A DNA stretch of 64,000 nt from Cyanobium sp. CZS48M (GTDB lineage: Bacteria > Cyanobacteriota > Cyanobacteriia > PCC-6307 > Cyanobiaceae). The stretch spans positions 1 to 64,000 of the forward strand of contig JAUCZK010000007.1 in assembly GCA_030373145.1 (NCBI GenBank), in the 5' to 3' direction. The position numbers were made by a program, and so were the translations under genes. Shown one piece after another: positions 12,654-25,371 of this stretch. Position 1 is the first letter of the stretch. The number at the start of each line of letters is the position of its first letter. Below the pieces are notes generated by a model that ran no database searches, was not told the origin of the DNA, and was given only the letters and a program-made list of their open reading frames with translations.

Positions 12654-13637
12654 ATGAACACCAGCGCCATCCACTCCAGCCCGGTGATCGGCGCGTCGAC
12701 ACCGCCGCCCTGGGTGGATGCGCGCACGCCCCTGGGGCGGCTGATCGCTGGGGTGCTGGCGGTGGAGCCCGTGCGGCAGCTGCTGTTCCTGCAGGCCCGG
12801 CGGATGATGATCCGCACGGCCGAGGGCCGGGGCATCCCCTGGCGCCAGCGCCGCGAGCAGCTGCGGCAGCAGGCGGAACCATTGCTCGCCAGCAGCACCG
12901 AGGCGGCCGTGGTCGTCCCGCCCTATTACCGGGCCCGCTTCCACGCCTATGCCCAGGGCAATCTCTGCTGGGAGGCCGCCTGTGAGGCAGAGCAGGCCAC
13001 CGATTCGGTGGCCCTGCGCGTGTGGAAAGAGGAGAAGCAACTCAGCCCCGAAGCCGCCCAGCAGCGTATGCGCGACGGCATCTACGCCGCGATCGAACCC
13101 AGCTTCAGCGGCCCGGTGCGCAACGTCCTCGACATCGGCTGTTCGGTGGGGGTGGGCACCCTGGCCCTGGCCGACTGGCTGGAGCAGCACGGCCACAGCG
13201 ACGCGCGCGTGAGCGGCCTCGATCTCTCCCCGCAGATGCTGGCGGTGGCGCGGGTGCGCGATGCCGGCGGCCGCATCAAGGCCTGGCACCACGGCGCCGC
13301 CGAAGCCACCGGCCTGCCGGCGGCCAGCCTTGATCTGATCACCGCCCAGTTCCTCTGCCATGAACTGCCGGGCGACGCCAGCCGCGCCGTGCTCAGGGAA
13401 GCGGCGCGGCTGCTGCGGCCCCGGGGGGTGCTGGCCCTGGTGGATCAGGACCCCGAGGCGGCGGTGATCCGCGCCATGCCGCCGGCCCTGGCCACCCTGC
13501 TCAAGGCCACAGAGCCCTACCTCGAGGACTACTTCCGTCTGGATCTGCCTGCCGCCCTGGCCGAGGCAGGCTTCACCGCCATCCGCCGGGTGGCCTCCGA
13601 CCACCGCCACCGGGTGCTGGTGGTCACCCGAGCGTGA
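12654..13637 (+). CDS. SAM-dependent methyltransferase, class I
   Basis: 327 residues. An N-terminal helical region of about 150 residues precedes a Rossmann methyltransferase with motif I LDIGCSVGVGTLALA (about 159-173), an acidic residue after strand 2 (GLDLSPQML) and the LLRPRGVLALVDQDP block. The substrate is unknown. The stop overlaps the GTG start of moaD (GTGA, 13634-13637), so it is coupled to the molybdopterin synthase genes, though nothing in the sequence ties it to cofactor synthesis. Confidence 0.8.
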   Translation: MNTSAIHSSPVIGASTPPPWVDARTPLGRLIAGVLAVEPVRQLLFLQARRMMIRTAEGRGIPWRQRREQLRQQAEPLLASSTEAAVVVPPYYRARFHAYAQGNLCWEAACEAEQATDSVALRVWKEEKQLSPEAAQQRMRDGIYAAIEPSFSGPVRNVLDIGCSVGVGTLALADWLEQHGHSDARVSGLDLSPQMLAVARVRDAGGRIKAWHHGAAEATGLPAASLDLITAQFLCHELPGDASRAVLREAARLLRPRGVLALVDQDPEAAVIRAMPPALATLLKATEPYLEDYFRLDLPAALAEAGFTAIRRVASDHRHRVLVVTRA

Positions 13638-14388: not shown

Positions 14389-15642
14389 TCAGAAGATCGG
14401 CAGCCGCAGCAGCTGCGCCCACAGCTCCGTGCCCGCCGCCAGGGTGCCCAGCTCCGCAGGAATCTCCAGCAGCAGGTCGGCCCTCTGCAGCGAACCGATG
14501 CGCGAGGAGGCCTGGCTGCCTTCCACCAAGGCCAGCAGCTCCCCTTCGGCTCCCACCTGCAGACGGGCGCGGGCCAGCTCGGGGCGGCCGGCACCACGCC
14601 GGAGCTCGGCCGCCAGGCGCACCTTCAGCCGCGGCAGCGGCTCCACCGGCGCCCCCTCCAGCCGCTGCAGCGCCGGCACCAGCAGCTGCAGGGCGGTGAT
14701 CGCCGCCGCCACCGGATTGCCCGGCAGCCCGAAGAACGGCGTGCCCAGCAGCTCGCCGAAGGCGAAGGGCCTCCCGGGCTTGAGGAACAGCTTCCAGAAG
14801 GCCACCGATCCCAGCTCCGCCAGCAGCGGCCGGATCCAGTCGCTGTCGCCCGCCGACACCCCGCCGGTGCTCACCACCAGATCACAGCCGGCCGCCAGCT
14901 CCAGCAGGGCCGAGCGCAGGGCGGCGGGCTGATCTCCCACCACCCGCCGCTCACTCACCACCATCCCCAGCCGCTGCAGCAGCGCCACCAGCAACGTGCC
15001 GTTGCTCTCCCAGATCTGCCCCGGAGCTCGGACGCTGCCCGCCGGCACCAGTTCATCGCCGCTGATCAGCAGCCCCAGCCGCGGCCGCGGCCGCAGGGCC
15101 AGCTCCGCCACGCCACAGCTGGCCAGTCGTCCCAGCAGCGCCGGACCCAGGCGCACGCCGGCCGCCAGCAGCTCCTGGCCGGCGGTGGCCTCCTCATCGG
15201 CGGCGCGGATCCAGGGGTTCGCCCCCGCCTCGCGCACCAGGCTGAGGCGCTCGCCCTCCACAGCCACCAGCTCCTGGGGCAGCACCCGGGTGGCCCCCTC
15301 CGGCAGCGGCGCACCGGTGAGGATTCGGATCGCTTCGCCGTCCGCCAGCGGCCTGGGGTAGGGAGCGCCGGGGGCCGAGCGGCCCAGCAGCGGCCACGAG
15401 TGTCCCACCTGCGGGACACTCGCCGCCGCCAGGGCATAGCCATCCATGATTGAGGCGCGGAAACCCGGCACCGCCTCACTGGCCAGCAGCGACTCGGCAC
15501 TCACCCGGCCCAGGGCCTGCTCCAGCGGCAGCACCTCGCGGCCGGCCAGGGGCGTGAGGGCGGCCAGCACCTGGCGGCGGGCCTCCTCCAGGGGCAGGCC
15601 TTCGCGGGGATAGGGCTCGAACGATGCAGCGCTGGTGCTCAT
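14389..15642 (-). CDS. moeA: Molybdopterin molybdenumtransferase MoeA
   Basis: 417 residues. Contains PGFRASIMDGYAL (61-73), ILTGAPLPEGA, STGGVSAGDSDW and FGLPGNPVAA, all diagnostic for MoeA, which inserts molybdate into adenylated molybdopterin. It is convergent to moaE and follows moaC on the same strand with a 13-nt gap. The moaA, moaB/mog and mobA functions are not in the window. Confidence 0.95.
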   Translation of the reverse strand: MSTSAASFEPYPREGLPLEEARRQVLAALTPLAGREVLPLEQALGRVSAESLLASEAVPGFRASIMDGYALAAASVPQVGHSWPLLGRSAPGAPYPRPLADGEAIRILTGAPLPEGATRVLPQELVAVEGERLSLVREAGANPWIRAADEEATAGQELLAAGVRLGPALLGRLASCGVAELALRPRPRLGLLISGDELVPAGSVRAPGQIWESNGTLLVALLQRLGMVVSERRVVGDQPAALRSALLELAAGCDLVVSTGGVSAGDSDWIRPLLAELGSVAFWKLFLKPGRPFAFGELLGTPFFGLPGNPVAAAITALQLLVPALQRLEGAPVEPLPRLKVRLAAELRRGAGRPELARARLQVGAEGELLALVEGSQASSRIGSLQRADLLLEIPAELGTLAAGTELWAQLLRLPIF

Positions 15643-15655
15643 CGGAAGCTCCGGC

Positions 15656-16171
15656 TCAGGAGGACACGGCGACAGGACGGCTCCAGGCGCCGTGGCGTCC
15701 CCCCGTCTTGCTCAGCAGCCGCACCGGGCCGATGGTCATGGCCGGATCGGCGGATTTGAGCATGTCGTAAAGGGTGAGCAGGCCCACCTGAACGGCGGTG
15801 AGCGCCTCCATCTCCACCCCCGTGGGCGCGGTGGTGCGGGCGGCCGCCTCAAGGCGCAGGCCGCGGCCATCGGCGCTGGGCTCGATGCGCACCTCCAGGC
15901 CCGTGAGCGCGATCGGGTGGCAGAGGGGGATCAGCTCCCAGGTGCGCTTGGCCCCCTGGATCGCCGCCACCCGCGCCACCGCCAGCACATCGCCTTTGGG
16001 GGCCCGGCCTTCCAGCACCAGGGCCAGCACCGCCGCCTCCATGCTGAGGAAACCCTCGGCCACGGCGCGACGATCGCTGGCGGGGCGATCGCCCACCTCC
16101 ACCATGTGCACCTCACCGCTGGCGTTGAGGTGGCTGAGCCGGCCCGGGGCTGAATCCATGCCGGCGATCAT
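15656..16171 (-). CDS. moaC: Cyclic pyranopterin monophosphate synthase MoaC
   Basis: 171 residues. Landmarks: [42 protein letters not shown] and [20 protein letters not shown], with the conserved Lys and His residues of the active site. It catalyses the second step of cyclic pyranopterin monophosphate synthesis after MoaA. MDSAPGRL at 16159 is an alternative start. The gene lies 13 nt after a DM13 protein gene on the same strand. Confidence 0.95.
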
Positions 16172-16657: not shown

Positions 16658-16790
16658 GACTGGTAGGTGGTGTGAGACCCCTTCAATACCGGCGGGGGCA
16701 GCCATCGGATTGCCCCGCTCCCCGGGCCAATCCGATCCGCAGGCTCAGCGGTAGACCATCTGTTCAAGCCCGTCCGGCTCCCCGTTGCGC

Positions 16791-17366
16791 GTGACCAACC
16801 CCGAGCCCAACACCACCGCACCCCCCGGGGCCAGGCTCCAGGACAACCTCCCAGCGGGGTATCCCGATCTGGCCGGCCTCTACGACGCCTGCGGGGCGCC
16901 GGTGTTCCGCCTGGCCCTGAGGCTCAGTCAGTCCCATCAGGAGGCAGAAGACCTCTGCCACGACGTCTTCCTGCGCTACTGGCAGCAGGGCCGCTACGAC
17001 CCCAAGCGCGGGCCGGTGCTGGCCTACCTGCTGCTGATGACGCGCTCGATGGCCTTCAACCGCATCGAGCAGCGCCGCAACCGCTGGCAGCTGGTGCAAC
17101 GCTGGTCGCAGCAGCTGTTTCCCTCGGCCGTGCGCAGCCCCCAGGAAGCCGCCGAGGCCGACGAGCTCGCCCAGCGGGTGCGACTCGCCCTTGAGGCGAT
17201 ACCCGCCAACCAGCGCCAGGTGCTGGAGATGGCCTACTACGAAGGCCTGAGCCAATCGGCCATCGCCGAGCGGTTGCAACTGCCCCTCGGCACCGTCAAG
17301 ACCCGCTCCCGCCAGGGTCTGATTCGCCTGCGTGACCAGCTGATCGACGAGCGCCCACAGCCATGA
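16791..17366 (+). CDS. ECF-type RNA polymerase sigma factor
   Basis: 191 residues. Region 2: LYDACGAPVFRLALRLSQSHQEAEDLCHDVFLRYW is visible in part at about 26-60. Region 4: ALEAIPANQRQVLEMAYYEG, LSQSAIAERLQLPLGTVKTR, RSRQGLIRLRDQL. GTG start at 16791; a TTG two codons earlier is less likely. It overlaps the downstream anti-sigma gene by 4 nt (ATGA), the standard sigma/anti-sigma coupling. The group resembles SigK-type sigma factors with RskA partners. Confidence 0.9.
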   Translation: MTNPEPNTTAPPGARLQDNLPAGYPDLAGLYDACGAPVFRLALRLSQSHQEAEDLCHDVFLRYWQQGRYDPKRGPVLAYLLLMTRSMAFNRIEQRRNRWQLVQRWSQQLFPSAVRSPQEAAEADELAQRVRLALEAIPANQRQVLEMAYYEGLSQSAIAERLQLPLGTVKTRSRQGLIRLRDQLIDERPQP

Positions 17367-18088
17367 GCATCCACGACACCCACATCCACGGCAGCGGAGC
17401 AGAGCCCCAGGCCGATCTCGACCTGCTGCTGGCCGGCCATGCCCTCGGCGACCTCGACGAACAGGAGCGCCAGCGGCTGGCGGCGCTGTTGCAGGAGCGC
17501 CCTGAGCTGCGCCAGCGCCTCGATGAGTTCAGCACCACCCTCGAACTGCTGCCCCTCGCCCTCCCCGTCGCCGCCAGTCCGCCGCAGCGCCTGCGCCAAC
17601 GGCTGCTGGCTCAGCCTCCACAGCGGCGGGCGATCCTCCCCTGGCTGCTGCCGGCACTGATGGGACTGGGGGTGCTGGTGCTGGGCAGCCAGCTGCACCA
17701 GACCCGCCAGCAGCTGGCGCGGGTGCAGCAGCAGGCAGGCTTCAACGGCACCCTCACCCCCGCCAGCCGGGAGATGCCTCTCCAGGCCATGGGCGGCGAG
17801 GGCGGCGCCAGCGGCAAGGTGCTGGTCACCGGCAATCCCACCCACAACATGCTGATGCTCGACGGACTGCCGCCGCCGCCGCCCAACAGCACCTACCGGC
17901 TCTGGGCCCGCGTCAATGGCCGCGAGGTGGGCTGTGTTCCCTTCGTGCCCGACGGCCAGGGCCATGTGGCCATGCCGATTCCCACCTACCCCACCAGCGC
18001 CGCCAGCAGCGTCAGCGTCAGCATCGAATCGCTGGGGGGCCTGGGGGCGCAGCCCACCGGCCGTCGCGTTCTCACCAGCACCATCTGA
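17363..18088 (+). CDS. RskA-like transmembrane anti-sigma factor
   Basis: 241 residues: an N-terminal cytoplasmic anti-sigma domain (DLDLLLAGHALGDLDEQERQ, helical to about 75), one membrane segment (ILPWLLPALMGLGVLVLGS, about 90-108), and an extracytoplasmic RskA domain with NPTHNMLMLDGLPPPPPNST, TYRLWARVNG and the Ser-rich VSVSIES. It should hold the upstream ECF factor inactive until an envelope or redox signal. It ends 8 nt before the start of the arsenosugar gene arsS, suggesting a common transcript. Confidence 0.88.
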   Translation: MSIHDTHIHGSGAEPQADLDLLLAGHALGDLDEQERQRLAALLQERPELRQRLDEFSTTLELLPLALPVAASPPQRLRQRLLAQPPQRRAILPWLLPALMGLGVLVLGSQLHQTRQQLARVQQQAGFNGTLTPASREMPLQAMGGEGGASGKVLVTGNPTHNMLMLDGLPPPPPNSTYRLWARVNGREVGCVPFVPDGQGHVAMPIPTYPTSAASSVSVSIESLGGLGAQPTGRRVLTSTI

Positions 18089-18096
18089 TTCCCACC

Positions 18097-19125
18097 GTGA
18101 CCAATACCCCACGCGTGACCAGCGCCCCCCACCTCAGCCGCTCAGGGCATGGCCGCCTGCAGCCCGCCCAGGCCTTCCCACCCCTCAGCCGCGGCCGCCT
18201 CGACACCCTGCAGGTGAACCTCACCTACCGCTGCAACCAGGCCTGCGTGCACTGCCACGTCAATGCCGGCCCCACCCGCACGGAGAGCATGGAGGCCGCC
18301 AGCGTCGAGCTGATCCCAGAGGTGCTGGCCGCCAGGGATCTGCGCTGCCTCGACCTCACCGGTGGGGCACCGGAGCTGCACCCCCAGTTCCGGGCGTTGG
18401 TGCGCGCGGCCCGCGCCCTCGGGGTGGAGGTGATCGATCGCTGCAACCTGACGATCCTGCAGGAACCGGGTCAGGAGGATCTGGCCGGCTTCCTCGCCGA
18501 CCAGGGGGTCACGGTGGTGGCCTCGCTGCCCTGCTACCTCCAGGACAACGTCGAGCGCCAGCGGGGCTCCGGGGTGTTCCAGCGCAGCATCAGCGGCCTG
18601 CGCCAGCTCAACGCCCTCGGCTACGGCCAGCCGGGCTCGGGCCTGGAGCTGAACCTGGTGTACAACCCCCAGGGCGCGGCGCTGCCGCCGGAGCAGGGGC
18701 CGCTGGAGGCCGACTACCGGCGGGTGCTCTGGGCCGATCACGGCGTGGTCTTCAACCGGCTCTATGCGCTGGCCAACATGCCGGTGCAGCGCTTCGCGGC
18801 GGTGCTGAGCGCCCAGGGAGAACTGGAGGACTACCTGCAGCTCCTGCGCCGCAGCCACCGCAACGACAACCTGGAGCAGGTGATGTGCCGCCAGCTGATC
18901 AGCGTCGACTGGCAGGGCTTCCTCTACGACTGCGATTTCAACCAGCAGCTGGGGCTGGCGGCCAGCGGTGATCCAACCGCCAACGCTGAAGGCAACGTCG
19001 GCCGCTCCCACCTGCGTGATCTGCTGCAGCGCGACCCCGCCGGCGACCCAATCCAGGTGGCGGACCACTGCTTCGGCTGCACCGCCGGCAGCGGCTCCAG
19101 CTGCGGCGGAGCCCTGGCCGCGTGA
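18097..19125 (+). CDS. arsS: ArsS, arsenosugar biosynthesis radical SAM protein
   Basis: 342 residues. The radical SAM cluster motif is CNQACVHC (Cys46, Cys50, Cys53), followed by the family signature LDLTGGAPELHPQFR, DRCNLTILQEPGQ, and the C-terminal DUF3641-type region with YDCDFNQQLGL and HCFGCTAGSGSSCGG. ArsS transfers the deoxyadenosyl moiety from SAM to dimethylarsenite. GTG start just after the anti-sigma stop. It overlaps the next gene by 4 nt (GTGA). ArsM, which makes the dimethylated substrate, is two genes downstream. Confidence 0.93.
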   Translation: MTNTPRVTSAPHLSRSGHGRLQPAQAFPPLSRGRLDTLQVNLTYRCNQACVHCHVNAGPTRTESMEAASVELIPEVLAARDLRCLDLTGGAPELHPQFRALVRAARALGVEVIDRCNLTILQEPGQEDLAGFLADQGVTVVASLPCYLQDNVERQRGSGVFQRSISGLRQLNALGYGQPGSGLELNLVYNPQGAALPPEQGPLEADYRRVLWADHGVVFNRLYALANMPVQRFAAVLSAQGELEDYLQLLRRSHRNDNLEQVMCRQLISVDWQGFLYDCDFNQQLGLAASGDPTANAEGNVGRSHLRDLLQRDPAGDPIQVADHCFGCTAGSGSSCGGALAA

Positions 19126-21299
19126 GCGGCACTCGGCAGCGCTGGCTGCTGCTGCTGGCGGTGGCGACCCTGGTGGCCCTGTTCTTTCTGCTGGATCTGC
19201 CCCAGAAGCTGAGCCTTGAGGCCCTGCGCGACGCCCAGACCAGCCTTCTGGCCTGGCGCCAGCGGGCACCCGCCAGCGCCGCCGCCCTCTACGGCCTGGC
19301 CTACGTGCTCGTCACTGGCCTCTCCCTGCCCGGGGCGGCGGTGATGACCCTGGCCGGCGGAGCCATCTTCGGGCTGGGGCTCGGAACCCTGCTGGTGTCG
19401 TTCGCCTCCAGCGCCGGCGCCACCATCGCCTTCCTGCTGGCGCGCACTCTGCTGCGGGAGCCGATGCTGAAGCGCTTCGCGGCCCGCCTGGCCCCGATCG
19501 AGGCGGGGTTGCGCCGCGATGGGGTGCTCTACCTGCTCAGCCTGCGGCTGGTGCCCGTGTTTCCCTTCTTTCTGGTGAACGTGGTGATGGGGCTGACCCC
19601 GATCCGCACGCTCTCCTTTTATCTCACCAGCCAGATCGGCATGCTGCCCGGCACCCTCGTGTACGTGAACGCCGGCACGCAGCTGGCGCGGCTGCGCAGC
19701 CTCGAGGGCATCCTCACGCCGCCGCTGCTGCTGTCCCTGGCACTGCTGGGGGCCTTCCCCTGGATCGCGCGCCTGGGCCTGGAGCGCTGGAAGCTCTGGC
19801 GGCTGTACAGCCCCTGGAGAAAACCGGCCCGCTTCGATCGCAACCTGATCGTGATCGGCGCCGGCGCGGCGGGCCTGGTCACCGCTTACATCGCCGCGGC
19901 CGTGAAGGCGAAGGTGACCCTGATCGAAGCCGAGCGCATGGGCGGCGACTGCCTCAACACCGGCTGCGTCCCCAGCAAAGCCCTGATCGCCACGGCCCGG
20001 GCGGCGGCGCGCATGCGCCAGGCCGATCGCTATGGCCTCGAACCGCACGAGCCCAGCGTCTCGCTGCCGCTGGTGCTGGAGCGGGTGTTCGCCAAGGTGG
20101 CGGCGGTGGCTCCCCACGACAGCGTCGAGCGCTACGGGGGGCTGGGGGTGGAGGTGCTGCGCGGCCACGGCCGCCTGATCGACCCCTGGACCGTGGCCAT
20201 CAGCGGCAGCGACGGCCAGGAGCACCGGCTGACGGCGCCGGCGATCGTGCTGGCCACCGGCGCCAGCCCGGTGCTGCCGGATCTGCCTGGGGCCGAGGCG
20301 GTCGGCCTGCTCACCAGTGAAACGGTGTGGCAGGCCCTGCGGGATTGCCCCCTGGCCTCACCGCGGATCGTGGTGATGGGAGGCGGTCCGATCGGTTGTG
20401 AACTCTCCCAGGCTCTGGCCCGCCTGGGCGCACGGGTCACCCTGCTGCAGCGGGGCCCGCAGCTGCTCAGCCGCGAAGACTACGACGCGGCCGCCGTGGT
20501 GCACCAGGCCCTCGAAGCCGATGGCGTGCGGGTGCTCACCCGTTGCACCGTGCTGGGCTTTGAACCGCGCGGTGCCGAAAAGTCGGTGCTGATCAGCAGC
20601 GGCGGGCCCGAAGCCCCAGAAGCCGGCGAGCTGCTCTGTGATCAGGTGCTCTGCGCCATCGGCCGGCGGGCGCGGCTGCAGGGCTATGGCCTCGAGGAGC
20701 TGGGCATCCCCTGCGGCCGCACCATCGATACCAACGCCTCACTGCAGACCCTCTTCCCCAACATCTATGCCGCCGGTGATGTGGCCGGCCCCTGGCAGTT
20801 CACCCACACCGCCGCCCACCAGGCCTGGTACGCCGCCGTCAATGCCCTGTTCGGGCCCTTCCGCCGTTTTCGCGTCGACGGGCGGGTGATCCCGCGCACC
20901 ACCTTCACCGAACCTGAGGTGGCGGGGGTGGGGCTGAGCGAGAGCGAAGCCGCCCGCCAGGGGGTGGCGGTGGAGGTGACCCGCTTCCCGATGCAGGAGC
21001 TGGATCGGGCGATCGTGGAAAGCGCCGAAACAGGTTTCGTGAAGGTGCTCACGCCCCCGGGCAGCGACAGGATCCTGGGGGTGACGATCGTGGCTGAGCA
21101 GGCCGGTGAACTGCTCGCGGAGTTCGTGCTGGCCATGCGCTGGCGCCTGGGACTCGGCAAAATCCTCTCCACCATCCACGCCTACCCCACCCTCTCGGAA
21201 GCAAACAAGTACGCCGCCGGGGCCTGGAAACGGGCCCACGCCCCCCAGCGCACCCTTGCCCTGCTGCAACGCTTCCACAGCTGGCGCCGCGGCGCCTGA
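19122..21299 (+). CDS. Fusion of TVP38/TMEM64 membrane domain with a MerA-like flavoprotein
   Basis: 725 residues. Residues 1-225 form a TVP38/TMEM64 (SNARE-associated, DedA-like) membrane domain with GAAVMTLAGGAIFGLGLGTL and RLVPVFPFFLVNVVMG. From about 240 begins a class I pyridine nucleotide-disulfide oxidoreductase: FAD motif VIGAGAAGLVTAYIAA, redox pair CLNTGC (Cys277, Cys282), NAD(P)H motif VVMGGGPIGCELSQAL, and C-terminal HAYPTLSE. There is no N-terminal HMA domain and no C-terminal Cys pair, so it is not a classical mercuric reductase. GTG start overlapping arsS. Position between arsS and arsM suggests an arsenic-related redox or membrane function; this is inference. Confidence 0.9.
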   Translation: MSGTRQRWLLLLAVATLVALFFLLDLPQKLSLEALRDAQTSLLAWRQRAPASAAALYGLAYVLVTGLSLPGAAVMTLAGGAIFGLGLGTLLVSFASSAGATIAFLLARTLLREPMLKRFAARLAPIEAGLRRDGVLYLLSLRLVPVFPFFLVNVVMGLTPIRTLSFYLTSQIGMLPGTLVYVNAGTQLARLRSLEGILTPPLLLSLALLGAFPWIARLGLERWKLWRLYSPWRKPARFDRNLIVIGAGAAGLVTAYIAAAVKAKVTLIEAERMGGDCLNTGCVPSKALIATARAAARMRQADRYGLEPHEPSVSLPLVLERVFAKVAAVAPHDSVERYGGLGVEVLRGHGRLIDPWTVAISGSDGQEHRLTAPAIVLATGASPVLPDLPGAEAVGLLTSETVWQALRDCPLASPRIVVMGGGPIGCELSQALARLGARVTLLQRGPQLLSREDYDAAAVVHQALEADGVRVLTRCTVLGFEPRGAEKSVLISSGGPEAPEAGELLCDQVLCAIGRRARLQGYGLEELGIPCGRTIDTNASLQTLFPNIYAAGDVAGPWQFTHTAAHQAWYAAVNALFGPFRRFRVDGRVIPRTTFTEPEVAGVGLSESEAARQGVAVEVTRFPMQELDRAIVESAETGFVKVLTPPGSDRILGVTIVAEQAGELLAEFVLAMRWRLGLGKILSTIHAYPTLSEANKYAAGAWKRAHAPQRTLALLQRFHSWRRGA

Positions 21300-21336
21300 C
21301 TCCCGCCATCGCGACCCCCCTCCGTTTCGTCTCGCC

Positions 21337-22416
21337 ATGACCGCTTCAACAACCAGCAGCTGCTGCAGCAGCGACGACTCCGGCGTGCGCGAGGCCGTGC
21401 AGAGCTATTACGGCAGCACCCTGGCCAGCAGCGCCGATCTGCGCACGAGCGCCTGCTGCGATGCCAGCGCGGTGCCCGCCGCCCTCAAGCCCCTGCTCAG
21501 CCGTCTCCATCCCGAGGTGCTCTCCCGCTACTACGGCTGCGGTCTGGTCTGCCCGCCGCTGCTGGAGGGCTCGCGGGTGCTGGATCTGGGCTGCGGCAGC
21601 GGCCGTGACGCCTACCTGCTCGCTCAATTGGTGGGGCCGGGCGGCATGGTAGTGGGGGTCGACATGACGGCGGAGCAGCTGGCGGTGGCCGAAGCCCACC
21701 GCGCCTTCCACGCCGAGGCCTTCGGCTACGACAACGTCCGCTTTCTTGAGGGCTACATCGAGCACCTGGATCAGCTTGAGCTGGAGCCGGGCAGCTTCGA
21801 TGTGGTGATCTCCAACTGCGTGGTGAACCTCTCCACCGACAAGCTGGCGGTGCTGCGCGGGGTGCGGCGGTTGCTCAAACCCGGCGGTGAGTTCTTCTTC
21901 GCCGATGTCTATGCCGACCGGCGGGTGCCCCAGGCCCTGCAGGCCGACCCGGTGCTCTACGGCGAATGCCTCAGTGGCGCCCTCTACTGGAACGATTTCC
22001 TGCGTCTGGCCCGCCAGGCGGGCTTCGCCGATCCGCGCCTGGTGAACGACCGCCCGCTGGAGATCACCGATCCGGAGCTGGCCGAGCGCACCGGTGAGCT
22101 GCGCTTTTTCTCCGCCACCTACCGGCTGTTCCAGATCGACGACCTCGAAGATGCCTGCGAGGACCACGGCCAGGCCGTGATCTACCGGGGCACGATCCCC
22201 GGCCACCCCCACCGCCTCGACTTCGACAAACACCACAGCCTGGAAGCGGGCCGGGTCTTTCCCGTCTGCGGCAACACCTTCCGGATGCTCCACCAGAGCC
22301 GGCTGGCGCCCCATTTCAACTTCATCGGCGCCGACTCCAGCGCCCACTTCGGCCTCTTTCCCGGCTGTGGCAGCGTGATGCCCTTCACAGCGGCAGGCTC
22401 CGCTTCCTGTTGTTGA
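21337..22416 (+). CDS. arsM: Arsenite S-adenosylmethionine methyltransferase
   Basis: 359 residues. SAM-binding motif VLDLGCGSGRDAYLLAQLVG (81-100). Conserved arsenic-binding cysteines are at candidate positions Cys40/41, Cys72 (GLVCPP), Cys161 (SNCVVNLS) and the one in FPVCGNTF, matching the pattern known for algal ArsM. It methylates As(III) stepwise. The extended Cys-rich N-terminus (SSCCSS) and C-terminus (SASCC) are extra. It lies 37 nt after the fusion gene, so it is the last gene of the arsenosugar set. Confidence 0.95.
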   Translation: MTASTTSSCCSSDDSGVREAVQSYYGSTLASSADLRTSACCDASAVPAALKPLLSRLHPEVLSRYYGCGLVCPPLLEGSRVLDLGCGSGRDAYLLAQLVGPGGMVVGVDMTAEQLAVAEAHRAFHAEAFGYDNVRFLEGYIEHLDQLELEPGSFDVVISNCVVNLSTDKLAVLRGVRRLLKPGGEFFFADVYADRRVPQALQADPVLYGECLSGALYWNDFLRLARQAGFADPRLVNDRPLEITDPELAERTGELRFFSATYRLFQIDDLEDACEDHGQAVIYRGTIPGHPHRLDFDKHHSLEAGRVFPVCGNTFRMLHQSRLAPHFNFIGADSSAHFGLFPGCGSVMPFTAAGSASCC

Positions 22417-22449: not shown

Positions 22450-23295
22450 TCACTGGCGGTTGAGCGACCAGTCGTAGTCGAGGGTGCCCAGGGCATAGCG
22501 GCCCTGCGCCAGGACAGCGCGGTCCTCAGGGCTGACGTAATCGCCGATGAAGGCCAGCACCGCACTGTCCTTCAGATGGCCGGGCACCGGAGCCGCCGTT
22601 GGGTTGGCCCGGTCCCAGTCCTCGCCGAACCAGCGGAAGATCGGCGAGATCAGCACCCGCTCCCCAGTCCGATCGATCCGCAGGCCATGGGGAGCCGCCA
22701 GCCAGCGGCGCACCTGATCCTCCAGTTGCTGCTCCAGCCGCTCAGCCGCGTAGGGCTCCCGGCGCAGGGGCGGGCAGCTGTTGGCGGCACACACCAGAGC
22801 CGCATGGATGCGCGGTTCGTTGAAGTCCTTGCGCAGGATCTGATGCTCGATCGCATCGAGCGTGCGCGGCTGGCCCGCCACCTGGTGGCGCCGCAGATTC
22901 CACACGCCCCAGATGTCCTTGATGCTGGCCTTCAGCGGAGTCTCCTGGATGATCGAGGCCAGGGTCAGGGCGTTGTAGGCATTGAGCAGGAAGGCGATCT
23001 GCTCCGCCTCACTCCAGGAGCGGTAGCGCTCCGGGGGCACGGCGCCGATCACCGCCACATAGCGCTCCAGATCCTCTGGTCGGCGCTGAAGGCCCTCGTA
23101 GTCCACCAGGCCCCGCTCGTTGACGTACTCCTGGAGCACCCGGGTGTAAGTCTCGCTGGAGTACGGCACAGCCGCGGCCGCCCCGGAGCCCGCCGTGCCG
23201 GCTGCCCCGGAGCCCGGCACGGCGAAGGGAGGCAGAGAGCAGCCCACCAGGGCGGTGGTCACTCCAGCCAGCAGAAACAGTCTCAGGGTGGTCAT
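22450..23295 (-). CDS. DUF547-domain lipoprotein
   Basis: 281 residues. The signal peptide ends in a lipobox (ALVGC), followed by a Gly/Ala-rich linker. The DUF547 domain contains FLLNAYNALTLASII, KDIWGVWN, DAIEHQILRKDFNEPRIHAALVCA (in part) and SCPPLRREPY. DUF547 has a papain-like or transglutaminase-like appearance but no settled function. ATG at 23295 overlaps the stop of the glycosyltransferase upstream (ATGA), so it is last in a three-gene minus-strand operon. It converges on arsM. Confidence 0.85.
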   Translation of the reverse strand: MTTLRLFLLAGVTTALVGCSLPPFAVPGSGAAGTAGSGAAAAVPYSSETYTRVLQEYVNERGLVDYEGLQRRPEDLERYVAVIGAVPPERYRSWSEAEQIAFLLNAYNALTLASIIQETPLKASIKDIWGVWNLRRHQVAGQPRTLDAIEHQILRKDFNEPRIHAALVCAANSCPPLRREPYAAERLEQQLEDQVRRWLAAPHGLRIDRTGERVLISPIFRWFGEDWDRANPTAAPVPGHLKDSAVLAFIGDYVSPEDRAVLAQGRYALGTLDYDWSLNRQ

Positions 23296-24617
23296 GGCAC
23301 GGACGGGTTGGAGTGATCGGGGGGCTGGAGCCTGGCCTGCCTCAGCTGGGTGATGCCGAAGCCCGCCACGAACGGGACCCAGATCAGGGCGCGCTCGATC
23401 TCCAGCAGGTTCCAATCGGGTTTTCGGTGCAGCAGCACGAAGTAGATGAACCCGCTCAGGCTCACCAGCCGCACGCCCCAGTTCGCCGTGGGCACGGCAA
23501 AGGGCACGATCCAGCTGAAGTACCAGAGATGAACGATCGGCGAGAGCGTGAGCACGGCAAACCAGTAGGCCTGCGCGAACCCGCCGAAGCGGCGGCAGCG
23601 CCACTGCAGCAGGGCCACCACCAGCAGCAGCGGCAGCAGATGGATGGCATTGCTGCTGCTGCTGGCCGGCCAGATCCGAGCCAACAGATGGGGAACGAAT
23701 TCGGCGCTGCGGGCCTGGGTCACGAAGGCCGAACCCGTGGGAATCAATGGGCAGAGGATCGAGTCGCAGTAGGCCAGTGACCCCAGGCCGAGGGGCAGAA
23801 GCCCCAGCAGGCCGAGTCCCAGCGCAAGCAGCCGTCGCCGATGGCGCAGCGCCCGCCAGCAGGGGTAGGCCAGCAGGGGCAGCGACACCCATTTGATCGC
23901 CACGCTCACCCCGATCAGCAGGGCGCCCAGGGCCCAGCGGCCGGCGAGCCCTGGTCCTGTTCCTGTTCCTGGCTCAGGTGGACGGTCGAACAGGAACCAG
24001 GCCGCCACCAGAGGCAGCAGAAACCAGCTGTCGTAGTGGGCACCGCCGCTGAAGCTGTAGATCACCAGGGGGTTCCAGGCCCAGAGCAACGCCGACGCCG
24101 CCCCGAACCGCCGGCTCAGCAGGGCACAGAGGCCCAGATCGCAAGCCAGGAAGGCCAGCTTGAACAGCAGCACCTGGGCGGGCACCAGGGTGAGCAGGCG
24201 AAAGCCGAGCTGCGTCAGGGGCGGGTAGATGGCCGTCACCGCCGGATGGTTGATCTGACCCCACCAGGCGGTCCGCAGGGCCTGCAGGGCAGTGGCGTCG
24301 GGAGCCAGTTCGTAGGGATTGAAGCCGTGCTGCTGGATCGTGCCTTCCCAGAGGTAACGCCAGACGTCATCGCCGGGCTCCATGGCCAGCAGCAGCAGCC
24401 GGGTGGCGATCGCCACCCCCCAGAACCAGACGGCCGGCAGCGCCACAATCCGCCAGGAGAGGGCAAAGCCCAGACCCATCACCGCCACGGCGCCCCAGAA
24501 CGCCTGCAGGACCCGCCAATCGCTGAGCTGGCCATGGGGGGCCATCCAGGCGGCCCCGCCCACCAGCAGCAGGGCGCACAGGCGCCAGAGGCTCCGCTGG
24601 CTGGAGGGGGCAGTCAT
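23292..24617 (-). CDS. Polytopic GT-C-type glycosyltransferase (GT87/DUF2029-like)
   Basis: 441 residues, with ten or more hydrophobic segments. An acidic pair lies in the first large loop (EPGDDVWRYLWEG, about 76-88), as in lipid-linked-sugar mannosyltransferases. NPLVIYSFSGGAHYDSWFLL follows the pattern of GT87 and related families. ATG 24617 overlaps the restored stop of the upstream family 2 glycosyltransferase (ATGA). It probably works in the membrane with polyprenyl-phosphate sugars made by that upstream enzyme. Confidence 0.75.
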   Translation of the reverse strand: MTAPSSQRSLWRLCALLLVGGAAWMAPHGQLSDWRVLQAFWGAVAVMGLGFALSWRIVALPAVWFWGVAIATRLLLLAMEPGDDVWRYLWEGTIQQHGFNPYELAPDATALQALRTAWWGQINHPAVTAIYPPLTQLGFRLLTLVPAQVLLFKLAFLACDLGLCALLSRRFGAASALLWAWNPLVIYSFSGGAHYDSWFLLPLVAAWFLFDRPPEPGTGTGPGLAGRWALGALLIGVSVAIKWVSLPLLAYPCWRALRHRRRLLALGLGLLGLLPLGLGSLAYCDSILCPLIPTGSAFVTQARSAEFVPHLLARIWPASSSSNAIHLLPLLLVVALLQWRCRRFGGFAQAYWFAVLTLSPIVHLWYFSWIVPFAVPTANWGVRLVSLSGFIYFVLLHRKPDWNLLEIERALIWVPFVAGFGITQLRQARLQPPDHSNPSVP

Positions 24618-25371
24618 GGCTGGCGTCGACGCCAGATCCGCGCCAGGTACAGGCCCCCGAGAGTGCGCAGGATCACCGCCCCGGCCCGGAGGCTGCCCAG
24701 CAGCGAGCCGGAGATCTTGGAACGCCCCCCTGGCGCGGCCGATAACCCACCGGCACTTCGCGGATACGGCAGCCCTGCTCCACCGCCCGCACCTGCATCT
24801 CGAGCGTCCAGCCAAAGCCCCGATCCCGCAGGGCGAGGGCCTCGAGGCAGGGGCGTCGGATCATGCGCATCGGACCGAGATCCCGATACCTGTGACCCCA
24901 GCCCAGCTGGATCAGGCGGGTCGCCAGGCGGTTGCCGAAGTGCTGCAGCGGGGTCATCGCCCGCCGACCCTCCGCCCCAGCCAGGCGGTTACCCAGCACC
25001 AGATCCGCTTCTGCCGCCGCCGCCAGCAACCTGGGCAGCGCCGCCAGATCGTCGCTGCCGTCACCGTCGCAGAAGAAAATCCACTCCACAGCAGGCGGCA
25101 GTCCGCCCAGGCCACGCCAGCAGGCCCGGCCATAGCCCGGCCTCGGCTCAACCACCACCTCCGCGCCGGCAGCGCTGGCCACCGCCGCGGTGTCATCGCC
25201 ACTGCCGTTATCCACCACCCGGATGCGCTCCAGACCCTGACCGCGCAGCTCCTGGATCACCGCGGCGATGGCGGCGGCCTCATCGCGCGCGGGAATCAGC
25301 ACCTGCAGGGAGGCGGCGGCTGGTCTGGGCGGCTGGGGGCGAATGAGTATGGGTCGGCTCGGGCAGTTCAC
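24614..25371 (-). CDS. Family 2 glycosyltransferase, frameshifted at a G tract
   Basis: DPM1/GtrB-like GT2: LQVLIPARDEAAAIAAVIQE, DNGSGDDT, FFCDGDGSDDLAALP (the DxD), and DLGPMRMIRR. From GTG 25371 the frame reads to YRPRQGG, then becomes nonsense and stops at 24673. In the neighbouring frame the expected tail follows: RSKISGSLLGSLRAGAVILR, then TLGGLYLARIWRRRQP, and a stop at 24614-24616 overlapping the next gene's ATG. The switch lies at a run of six G (minus strand, 24725-24730); one more or two fewer G would restore the frame. This could be a sequencing error, a real mutation or slippage. Confidence 0.8.

Follow-up and report, generated by a model that had tools for sequence, protein, structure and literature searches.

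What does a membrane protein fused to a reductase-like flavoprotein do among the genes of arsenosugar formation? The question is raised by a 64,000-nt stretch of the 2.77-Mb genome of the cyanobacterium Cyanobium sp. CZS48M (contig JAUCZK010000007.1, positions 1 to 64,000; hereafter, the window). At 19122-21299 on the + strand, an open reading frame (ORF) of 725 residues joins a TVP38/YdjX-type membrane domain to a flavin adenine dinucleotide (FAD)-dependent flavoprotein resembling the class I disulfide reductases. The first-pass annotation, made from the letters alone, had described this DedA-like fusion, its 4-nt overlap with arsS (the two ORFs share GTGA) and its CLNTGC motif (C277-C282), and all of this held, with the VTT and Pyr_redox domains scoring above their cut-offs. 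It had also placed the gene between arsS and arsM, in a span (18097-22416) that takes in all three genes rather than the fusion alone. The upstream gene is indeed that of ArsS, the arsenosugar radical S-adenosylmethionine (SAM) enzyme (18097-19125, +; TIGR04167, 440.5 bits against a cut-off of 300). The product of the downstream gene (21337-22416, +), an arsenite methyltransferase whose ATG at 21337 lies 37 nt past the fusion stop, fell below the cut-offs of both PRK11873 (166.9 bits; cut-off, 263) and the arsenosugar ArsM model NF038099 (86.6 bits; cut-off, 400), and "ArsM-like" is therefore the accurate word. No protein of the window genome exceeded the NF038099 cut-off. The ArsM-like protein was the best match, and the runner-up reached just 25.9 bits; therefore, the ArsM-like protein is the likely partner of ArsS.

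Overall, we found the fusion, or the same two parts unfused, near ArsS or ArsM in unrelated groups above chance, and the arsenosugar link is real but partial. Our leading, though tentative, reading of these sequence comparisons is that the protein is an accessory, membrane-anchored reductase that uses reduced nicotinamide adenine dinucleotide (phosphate), NAD(P)H, and serves more than one pathway, arsenosugar formation probably included.

Linkage with arsenosugar genes in two phyla

We scanned the contigs of the best 80 of 233 relatives of the fusion, comprising 14 cyanobacterial loci and 66 others, almost all of which are, by record title, Proteobacteria in the former broad sense. Some of these loci lie on short contigs, and the marker counts are lower bounds. 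In seven further Synechococcus/Cyanobium genomes (loci L064-L070), ArsS lies directly upstream of the fusion; L068 is the locus of Synechococcus sp. WH 5701, a laboratory strain that thus carries the operon. Among the 66 non-cyanobacterial loci, ArsS was present in 17, and in at least 14 of these (a count that leaves out L113) it immediately precedes the fusion in the same orientation. Glycosyltransferases of the TIGR04282/TIGR04283 type, which bear the NCBI name "arsenosugar biosynthesis", were present in 23 loci and ArsM in 8. Neighbors were counted by sequence clusters; 12 glycosyltransferase members were scanned, and 11 exceeded the cut-off (the TIGR04282 member of L142 fell below it). One locus, L099, reads ArsS, fusion, DUF547, TIGR04283, TIGR04282 and ArsM. 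The 66 loci thus split into 31 with an arsenosugar-type marker (ArsS, glycosyltransferase or ArsM), 24 with a cytidine diphosphate (CDP)-alcohol phosphatidyltransferase and 11 with neither.

At the genome level, ArsS was found in 29 of 50 fusion-bearing genomes searched (the 80 loci minus L064-L076, L094, L096, L110-L112, L114, L118, L120, L122, L123, L125, L131, L132, L135, L138, L140 and L141). ArsS is common among Gammaproteobacteria in general (138/274), so this carrier figure would show little by itself. The fusion or flavoprotein occurs in 91 of these 274 gammaproteobacterial genomes, and ArsS accompanies it in 72 of the 91 carriers versus 66 of the 183 non-carriers (Fisher p ~1e-11, kinship ignored); such p-values are inflated by shared ancestry and incomplete metagenome-assembled genomes (MAGs). 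Additionally, 11 of the 72 genomes with both genes hold them within 10 kb (one being the search center), compared with approximately 0.4 expected; chance expectations, here and below, rest on rounded genome sizes and ignore kinship. On a quick tree of the fusions and their relatives, ArsS linkage required 13 changes, or at least 8 when only the well-supported branches are considered, and has therefore been gained or lost repeatedly.

In cyanobacteria outside the family of the window genome, the flavoprotein and the VTT domain are separate genes. In 18 of 25 unselected loci (L009-L033), the VTT gene immediately precedes the flavoprotein gene in the same orientation, with gaps of -47 to +202 nt. 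Large open frames had suggested fusions in nine other cyanobacteria; their ORFs proved to be unfused (510-528 aa; three were confirmed by reading from stop to stop), with the VTT gene directly upstream in 9/9. Of 89 ArsS loci from cyanobacteria outside the family (those fetched among the matches listed, of 262 genomes with a match), nine have the flavoprotein no more than 8 kb from ArsS, versus ~0.3 expected, and eight of the nine also have a VTT gene nearby. In a set of 324 cyanobacterial genomes from outside the family, 238 of the 262 with ArsS have the flavoprotein versus 26 of the 62 without ArsS; presence, here and in the family counts below, means a best E-value <1e-70, a line to which genomes G068 and G184 come close. 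Locus L176 reads ArsS, flavoprotein, VTT, ArsM, VTT and DUF547, and the ArsM of the three loci checked (L154, L155 and L176) is true arsenosugar ArsM.

Active site and membrane domain of the fusion

The flavoprotein domain occupies residues 241-698 (19842-21215), with Pyr_redox_2 over residues 241-568 (192.6 bits) and Pyr_redox_dim over residues 590-698 (103 bits), both above cut-off. An AlphaFold2 model built from an alignment of 51 fusions gave a mean predicted local distance difference test score (pLDDT) of 84.3 and a predicted template modeling score of 0.74, with pLDDT <50 at residues 685-699, around Tyr688. In a fold comparison using residues 236-704, mercuric reductase MerA (4ywo; Z 41.9, root-mean-square deviation 2.2 over 433 residues) tied with dihydrolipoyl dehydrogenase, Lpd (2qae; Z 41.3, deviation 2.3 over 442 residues), and the best sequence match among solved structures was Lpd 2eq6 (2.2e-72).

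The redox-active pair Cys277/Cys282 of the CLNTGC motif (19950-19967) was kept in all 106 relatives compared (89 fusions and 17 unfused proteins of cyanobacteria). In all 106, a tyrosine, Tyr688 in the window protein (21183-21185), takes the position that the catalytic His holds in Lpd and glutathione reductase, which speaks against ordinary disulfide reduction. The two outgroup paralogues have His here, before Pro-Thr, and alignment with solved structures shows His in Lpd and Tyr in MerA 5x1y. The partner residue Glu693 is Glu in 104 relatives and Asp in two. With Tyr688 in this position, an ordinary disulfide reductase becomes less likely, and the MerA-like handling of a thiolate-bound metalloid more thinkable. 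Membership of the Lpd family itself was rejected: despite the sequence match and the fold, the protein scored 341.2 bits against the TIGR01350 cut-off of 408.8, and Tyr688 replaces the catalytic His.

Could the protein then be a mercuric (or other metal) reductase of the MerA type, with arsenic merely a neighbor? The fold tie, the shared redox Cys pair and the Tyr at the base position favor this idea. Moreover, PMC6741143 cites Synechocystis Slr1849, called MerA, as a biochemically shown mercury reductase. However, the window protein scored 336.7 bits against the MerA model TIGR02053, whose cut-off is 454.45, and it carries an N-terminal membrane domain. A hallmark of MerA is a C-terminal vicinal Cys pair. 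The first-pass annotation had noted the lack of this pair, and indeed none of the 108 sequences compared, the 106 relatives included, has a CC among its last 60 residues. MerA membership was therefore rejected, and a metal reductase for which arsenic is incidental appears highly improbable.

The second strand of the NAD(P) domain ends at the coenzyme site (positions 443 and 444). In this enzyme family, Glu at this site marks NADH users, and a basic residue marks NADPH users. Glu443, as in Lpd, is found in 61 of 68 fusions of other bacteria, whereas all 21 Synechococcus/Cyanobium fusions have Gln443-Arg444 (20448-20453 in the window), like the QRS of MerA 5x1y. The unfused cyanobacterial relatives have His443 in 16/17 and Lys or Arg at 444 in 16/17. 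On this basis, we infer that the window fusion uses NADPH. The Synechococcus/Cyanobium clade is nested among Glu-bearing fusions, and a switch from an NADH-like to an NADPH-like site on this branch is therefore likely.

In the membrane half, the VTT (TVP38/DedA) domain (PF09335, 75.1 bits; cut-off, 33.9) spans residues 73-186 (19338-19679), and E. coli YdjX shares 38% identity with residues 55-210, a similarity that would assign the domain to COG0398. A lipid role of this half is possible by analogy: COG0398 DedA proteins are proposed phospholipid scramblases (PMC10127716), and algae contain arsenosugar phospholipids (PMC7345539). The TVP38 half might even be the working part, flipping or exporting an arsenosugar lipid or its carrier while the flavoprotein half gates or repairs it. 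The invariance of R142, P145, P148 and N153 of the VTT domain across 51 fusions and the CDP-alcohol phosphatidyltransferase beside the fusion in its other context are consistent with such a role. However, no recognizable lipid gene was found among the five tandem genes of the window locus, and the flavoprotein active site is kept as strictly as the membrane half. In addition, a nearby VTT gene unaccompanied by the flavoprotein was seen at 11 of the 89 cyanobacterial ArsS loci; the membrane part is thus not dependent on the reductase. We regard a protein whose main task is to move or export lipids as distinctly improbable.

Other contexts, ancestry and surroundings

The CDP-alcohol phosphatidyltransferase lies within 700 bp of the fusion in 21 of the 24 loci that contain it (six cluster members were scanned, all PF01066), and 17 of the 24 also have ABC transporter genes. 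We compared seven loci, five of the 24 (L079, L101, L121, L125 and L133) and two plasmid loci (L144 and L145), and found them homologous to the E. coli operon ydjXYZ-ynjABCDEF. In these, the fusion takes the place of YdjX/YdjZ and is accompanied by YnjB, YnjC, YnjD and YnjF homologues; operons of this type span 10001-16256 in L101, 7920-15219 in L144 and 5402-13404 in L266. The E. coli operon shares with the fusion the YdjX-like membrane half, but its YdjX/YdjZ are unfused and it has no such flavoprotein gene. Sequence clustering detected no YnjBCD/YnjF genes within ~10 kb on each side of the window fusion (9122-31299). L144 holds a distant fusion (53%) with ynj-type genes on enterobacterial plasmids, and in one record an IS4321 transposase lies ~4 kb away.

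A close tie between the fusion and arsenosugar formation is weakened by this context and by several further observations. None of the 24 phosphatidyltransferase loci contains ArsS or the TIGR04282/TIGR04283 glycosyltransferases, and 11 of the 66 loci lack any marker. ArsS was not found in 21 of the 50 fusion-bearing genomes searched, some of which are MAGs. Only 11 of the 72 Gammaproteobacteria with both genes hold them within 10 kb, and at 80 of the 89 cyanobacterial ArsS loci, the nearest 8 kb contain no flavoprotein gene. In the family of the window genome, ArsS occurs in 64 of 64 sampled genomes and the fusion in only five (G000, G119, G302, G311 and G358), leaving 59 without it; therefore, ArsS does not need the fusion. 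Second fusion copies in G302 and G311 (L204 and L205) lie away from ArsS. The tyrosine at the catalytic-His place, described above, is a further point against the accessory-reductase reading.

These counts (ArsS absent in 21/50 carriers, another context in 24/66 loci and ArsS alone in 59/64 family genomes) led us to reject the fusion as a dedicated or required arsenosugar gene. The first-pass annotation had proposed co-occurrence with ArsS and ArsM as its test. Proximity above chance in unrelated groups bears the idea out in part, and the 59 family genomes with ArsS alone go against it. Half of what it had named as damaging, a fusion frequent in genomes without arsS/arsM and unlinked to arsenic, was also seen, since the fusion is frequent without ArsS as well.

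Is it, then, a general redox or membrane-stress protein, perhaps under the control of extracytoplasmic function (ECF) sigma factors, that travels with islands of metal and redox genes, its place in the arsS operon being opportunistic and its substrate unrelated to arsenic? The phosphatidyltransferase context with its ydj/ynj-like loci would agree with this, as would the second fusion copies and the absence of ArsS from 19 of the 91 gammaproteobacterial carriers. An ECF sigma gene lies within 6 kb of the fusion in 11 of 53 full-flank loci and at 3.8-6.6 kb in L144, L145, L187, L246 and L264. However, in two phyla, fused and unfused forms alike share genomes and loci with ArsS more often than chance would give. 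Moreover, among the 50 genomes, ArsS occurs in 0 of 16 with the phosphatidyltransferase context versus 29 of the 34 others, a split unlike random carriage, although kinship is uncontrolled. We consider a general stress protein somewhat unlikely and retain the accessory reductase as the preferred reading.

The fusion architecture itself is already known. RefSeq names it "bifunctional TVP38/TMEM64 family protein/FAD-dependent oxidoreductase", and the window fusion is 58.8% identical to one record so named (H1) over 96%, colinearly. The window protein has the same two domains in the same order as this family and 53-61% identity, near full length, to its proteobacterial members; it differs in its ArsS and ArsM-like operon partners and in having Gln443-Arg444 rather than Glu443. 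The closest named relatives among the best 80 of 233 are those of Synechococcus sp. RedBA-s (97% identity) and CS-1329 (95%). COG0398 DedA fused to PF07992 and PF02852 is described as the commonest COG0398 fusion (Todor et al., 2023, PMC10127716), and the string "arsen" is absent from the portion of that text available.

In the quick tree (108 rows), all 89 fusions fall on one side of a branch with Shimodaira-Hasegawa approximate likelihood ratio test support of 97, and the 21 Synechococcus/Cyanobium fusions group together (100) within the remainder, next to those of a gammaproteobacterial MAG (L084) and Mariprofundus (L077), with supports of just 80-83. In FastTree phylogenies, the window-type ArsM groups with proteobacterial ArsM, and the ArsS of the window family stands apart from both proteobacterial and other cyanobacterial ArsS. 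These trees are most simply explained if a fusion and an ArsM, both of proteobacterial origin, came to join a local ArsS. We viewed 18 family loci, a sample of the 64 genomes. Fusion and ArsM are adjacent, ~3 kb from ArsS, in G302 and G358; ArsS-ArsM pairs without a fusion between them occur in G119, G335 and G268, and in G119 the fusion and ArsS are on different contigs.

A second Synechococcus/Cyanobium fusion clade (L204, L205, L071-L076 and L138) has no ArsS in its loci. A glyoxalase-like ORF lies downstream of the fusion in L071-L076 and L138 (one checked), and DUF547 and a TIGR04283-type glycosyltransferase lie ~4-7 kb from the fusion in L071-L075, L204 and L205. A DUF547 gene is present in 13 of the 66 non-cyanobacterial and 9 of the 14 cyanobacterial fusion loci, making it a repeated neighbor of fused and unfused versions in both Cyanobacteria and Proteobacteria (L078, L082, L099, L155 and L176). 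In the window, a DUF547-domain ORF identified by domain match (22450-23892, -; start approximate) converges with the ArsM-like gene.

The window fusion belongs to a row of five tandem + strand genes. The row, a likely operon, opens with an ECF sigma factor (16785-17366; Sigma70_r2/r4 matches), followed with a 4-nt overlap by an RskA-like anti-sigma factor (17363-18088; PF10099 over cut-off) that ends 8 nt 5' of arsS, and continues with ArsS, the fusion and the ArsM-like gene. The five genes probably form one operon, in which ArsS and the fusion would be co-translated through translational coupling. An ECF sigma gene also lies upstream in L065-L070 and in L187; an RskA-like anti-sigma factor accompanies the ECF sigma factor in L187, L246 and L264, and a zf-HC2 protein in L145. 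The ECF sigma genes recurring near the fusion or its unfused parts hint at stress control.

The window locus resembles known arsenosugar clusters (ArsS, ArsM, TIGR04282 and TIGR04283) in its ArsS and tandem ArsM-like gene. In contrast to them, its methyltransferase is not of the NF038099 type, and the TIGR04282/TIGR04283 glycosyltransferase matches over cut-off sit on other contigs of the genome. A search of the window genome for an Acr3 exporter found none. Beyond the DUF547 ORF, a 507-aa ORF (23292-24815, -) looks like a membrane glycosyltransferase by eye, with no NCBIfam match at 1e-15, and overlaps an AglJ-like GT2 ORF (24673-25371, -; 113 bits, cut-off 325); neither exceeds the cut-off of the arsenosugar glycosyltransferase models. 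Upstream lie genes that we take, by eye, to encode CutA-like (12272, +), MoaE-like (13863, +), MoeA-like (14389-15642, -) and MoaC-like (15656-16171, -) proteins, and a methyltransferase (12654-13637) whose best model, CpaM, it matches below cut-off.

A putative role at the membrane

Here, we provide a putative mechanism for the fusion as an accessory reductase. The C-terminal half would draw electrons from a donor, NADPH in this clade, and relay them via FAD to Cys277/Cys282, presumably at the cytoplasmic face. The N-terminal TVP38 half would serve as the membrane anchor and probably moves or senses a lipid-like partner. The fusion may thus be a general module that has been taken into more than one pathway. 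ArsM and ArsS work on trivalent, thiol-bound arsenic; therefore, a reductant is needed, and a membrane-held NADPH reductase fits this need. In the arsS operon, the fusion would most likely provide reductant for the thiols or arsenic intermediates involved in the ArsM-ArsS steps. Its site of action would be the membrane, the end point of arsenosugar phospholipids, where it may be helpful but not required. ArsS is reported to adenosylate arsenic (Cheng et al. 2021, cited in PMC12159101), and the title of a reference in PMC12159101 speaks of Synechocystis arsenolipids.

A bolder possibility is that the TVP38-flavoprotein pair is a real arsenosugar-lipid step, repeatedly recruited in Cyanobacteria and Proteobacteria, in which a lipid-moving domain is coupled to a reductase with a MerA-like Tyr that acts on arsenic intermediates at the membrane. 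The coenzyme site of the Synechococcus/Cyanobium clade would have switched from NADH-like to NADPH-like, and the similar site of the unfused cyanobacterial proteins may be of separate origin. We regard this as quite unlikely; if it were true, E. coli ydjXYZ-ynjABCDEF would be related machinery for another substrate.

We found no paper linking TVP38 fusions to arsenosugars in the open-licence literature, a weak absence, since subscription papers were mostly outside the search. The pairing with arsenosugar genes in distant bacteria nevertheless suggests a testable, non-exclusive job for this known architecture. For the arsenosugars and arsenolipids that algae and cyanobacteria produce, the excerpts consulted assign enzymes only to the methyltransferase and radical SAM steps. 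A flavoprotein-membrane module recurring beside ArsS would therefore offer a concrete gene for the membrane side of arsenosugar formation, and the same module in ydj/ynj-type operons may give a handle on an E. coli operon consisting mostly of y-genes.

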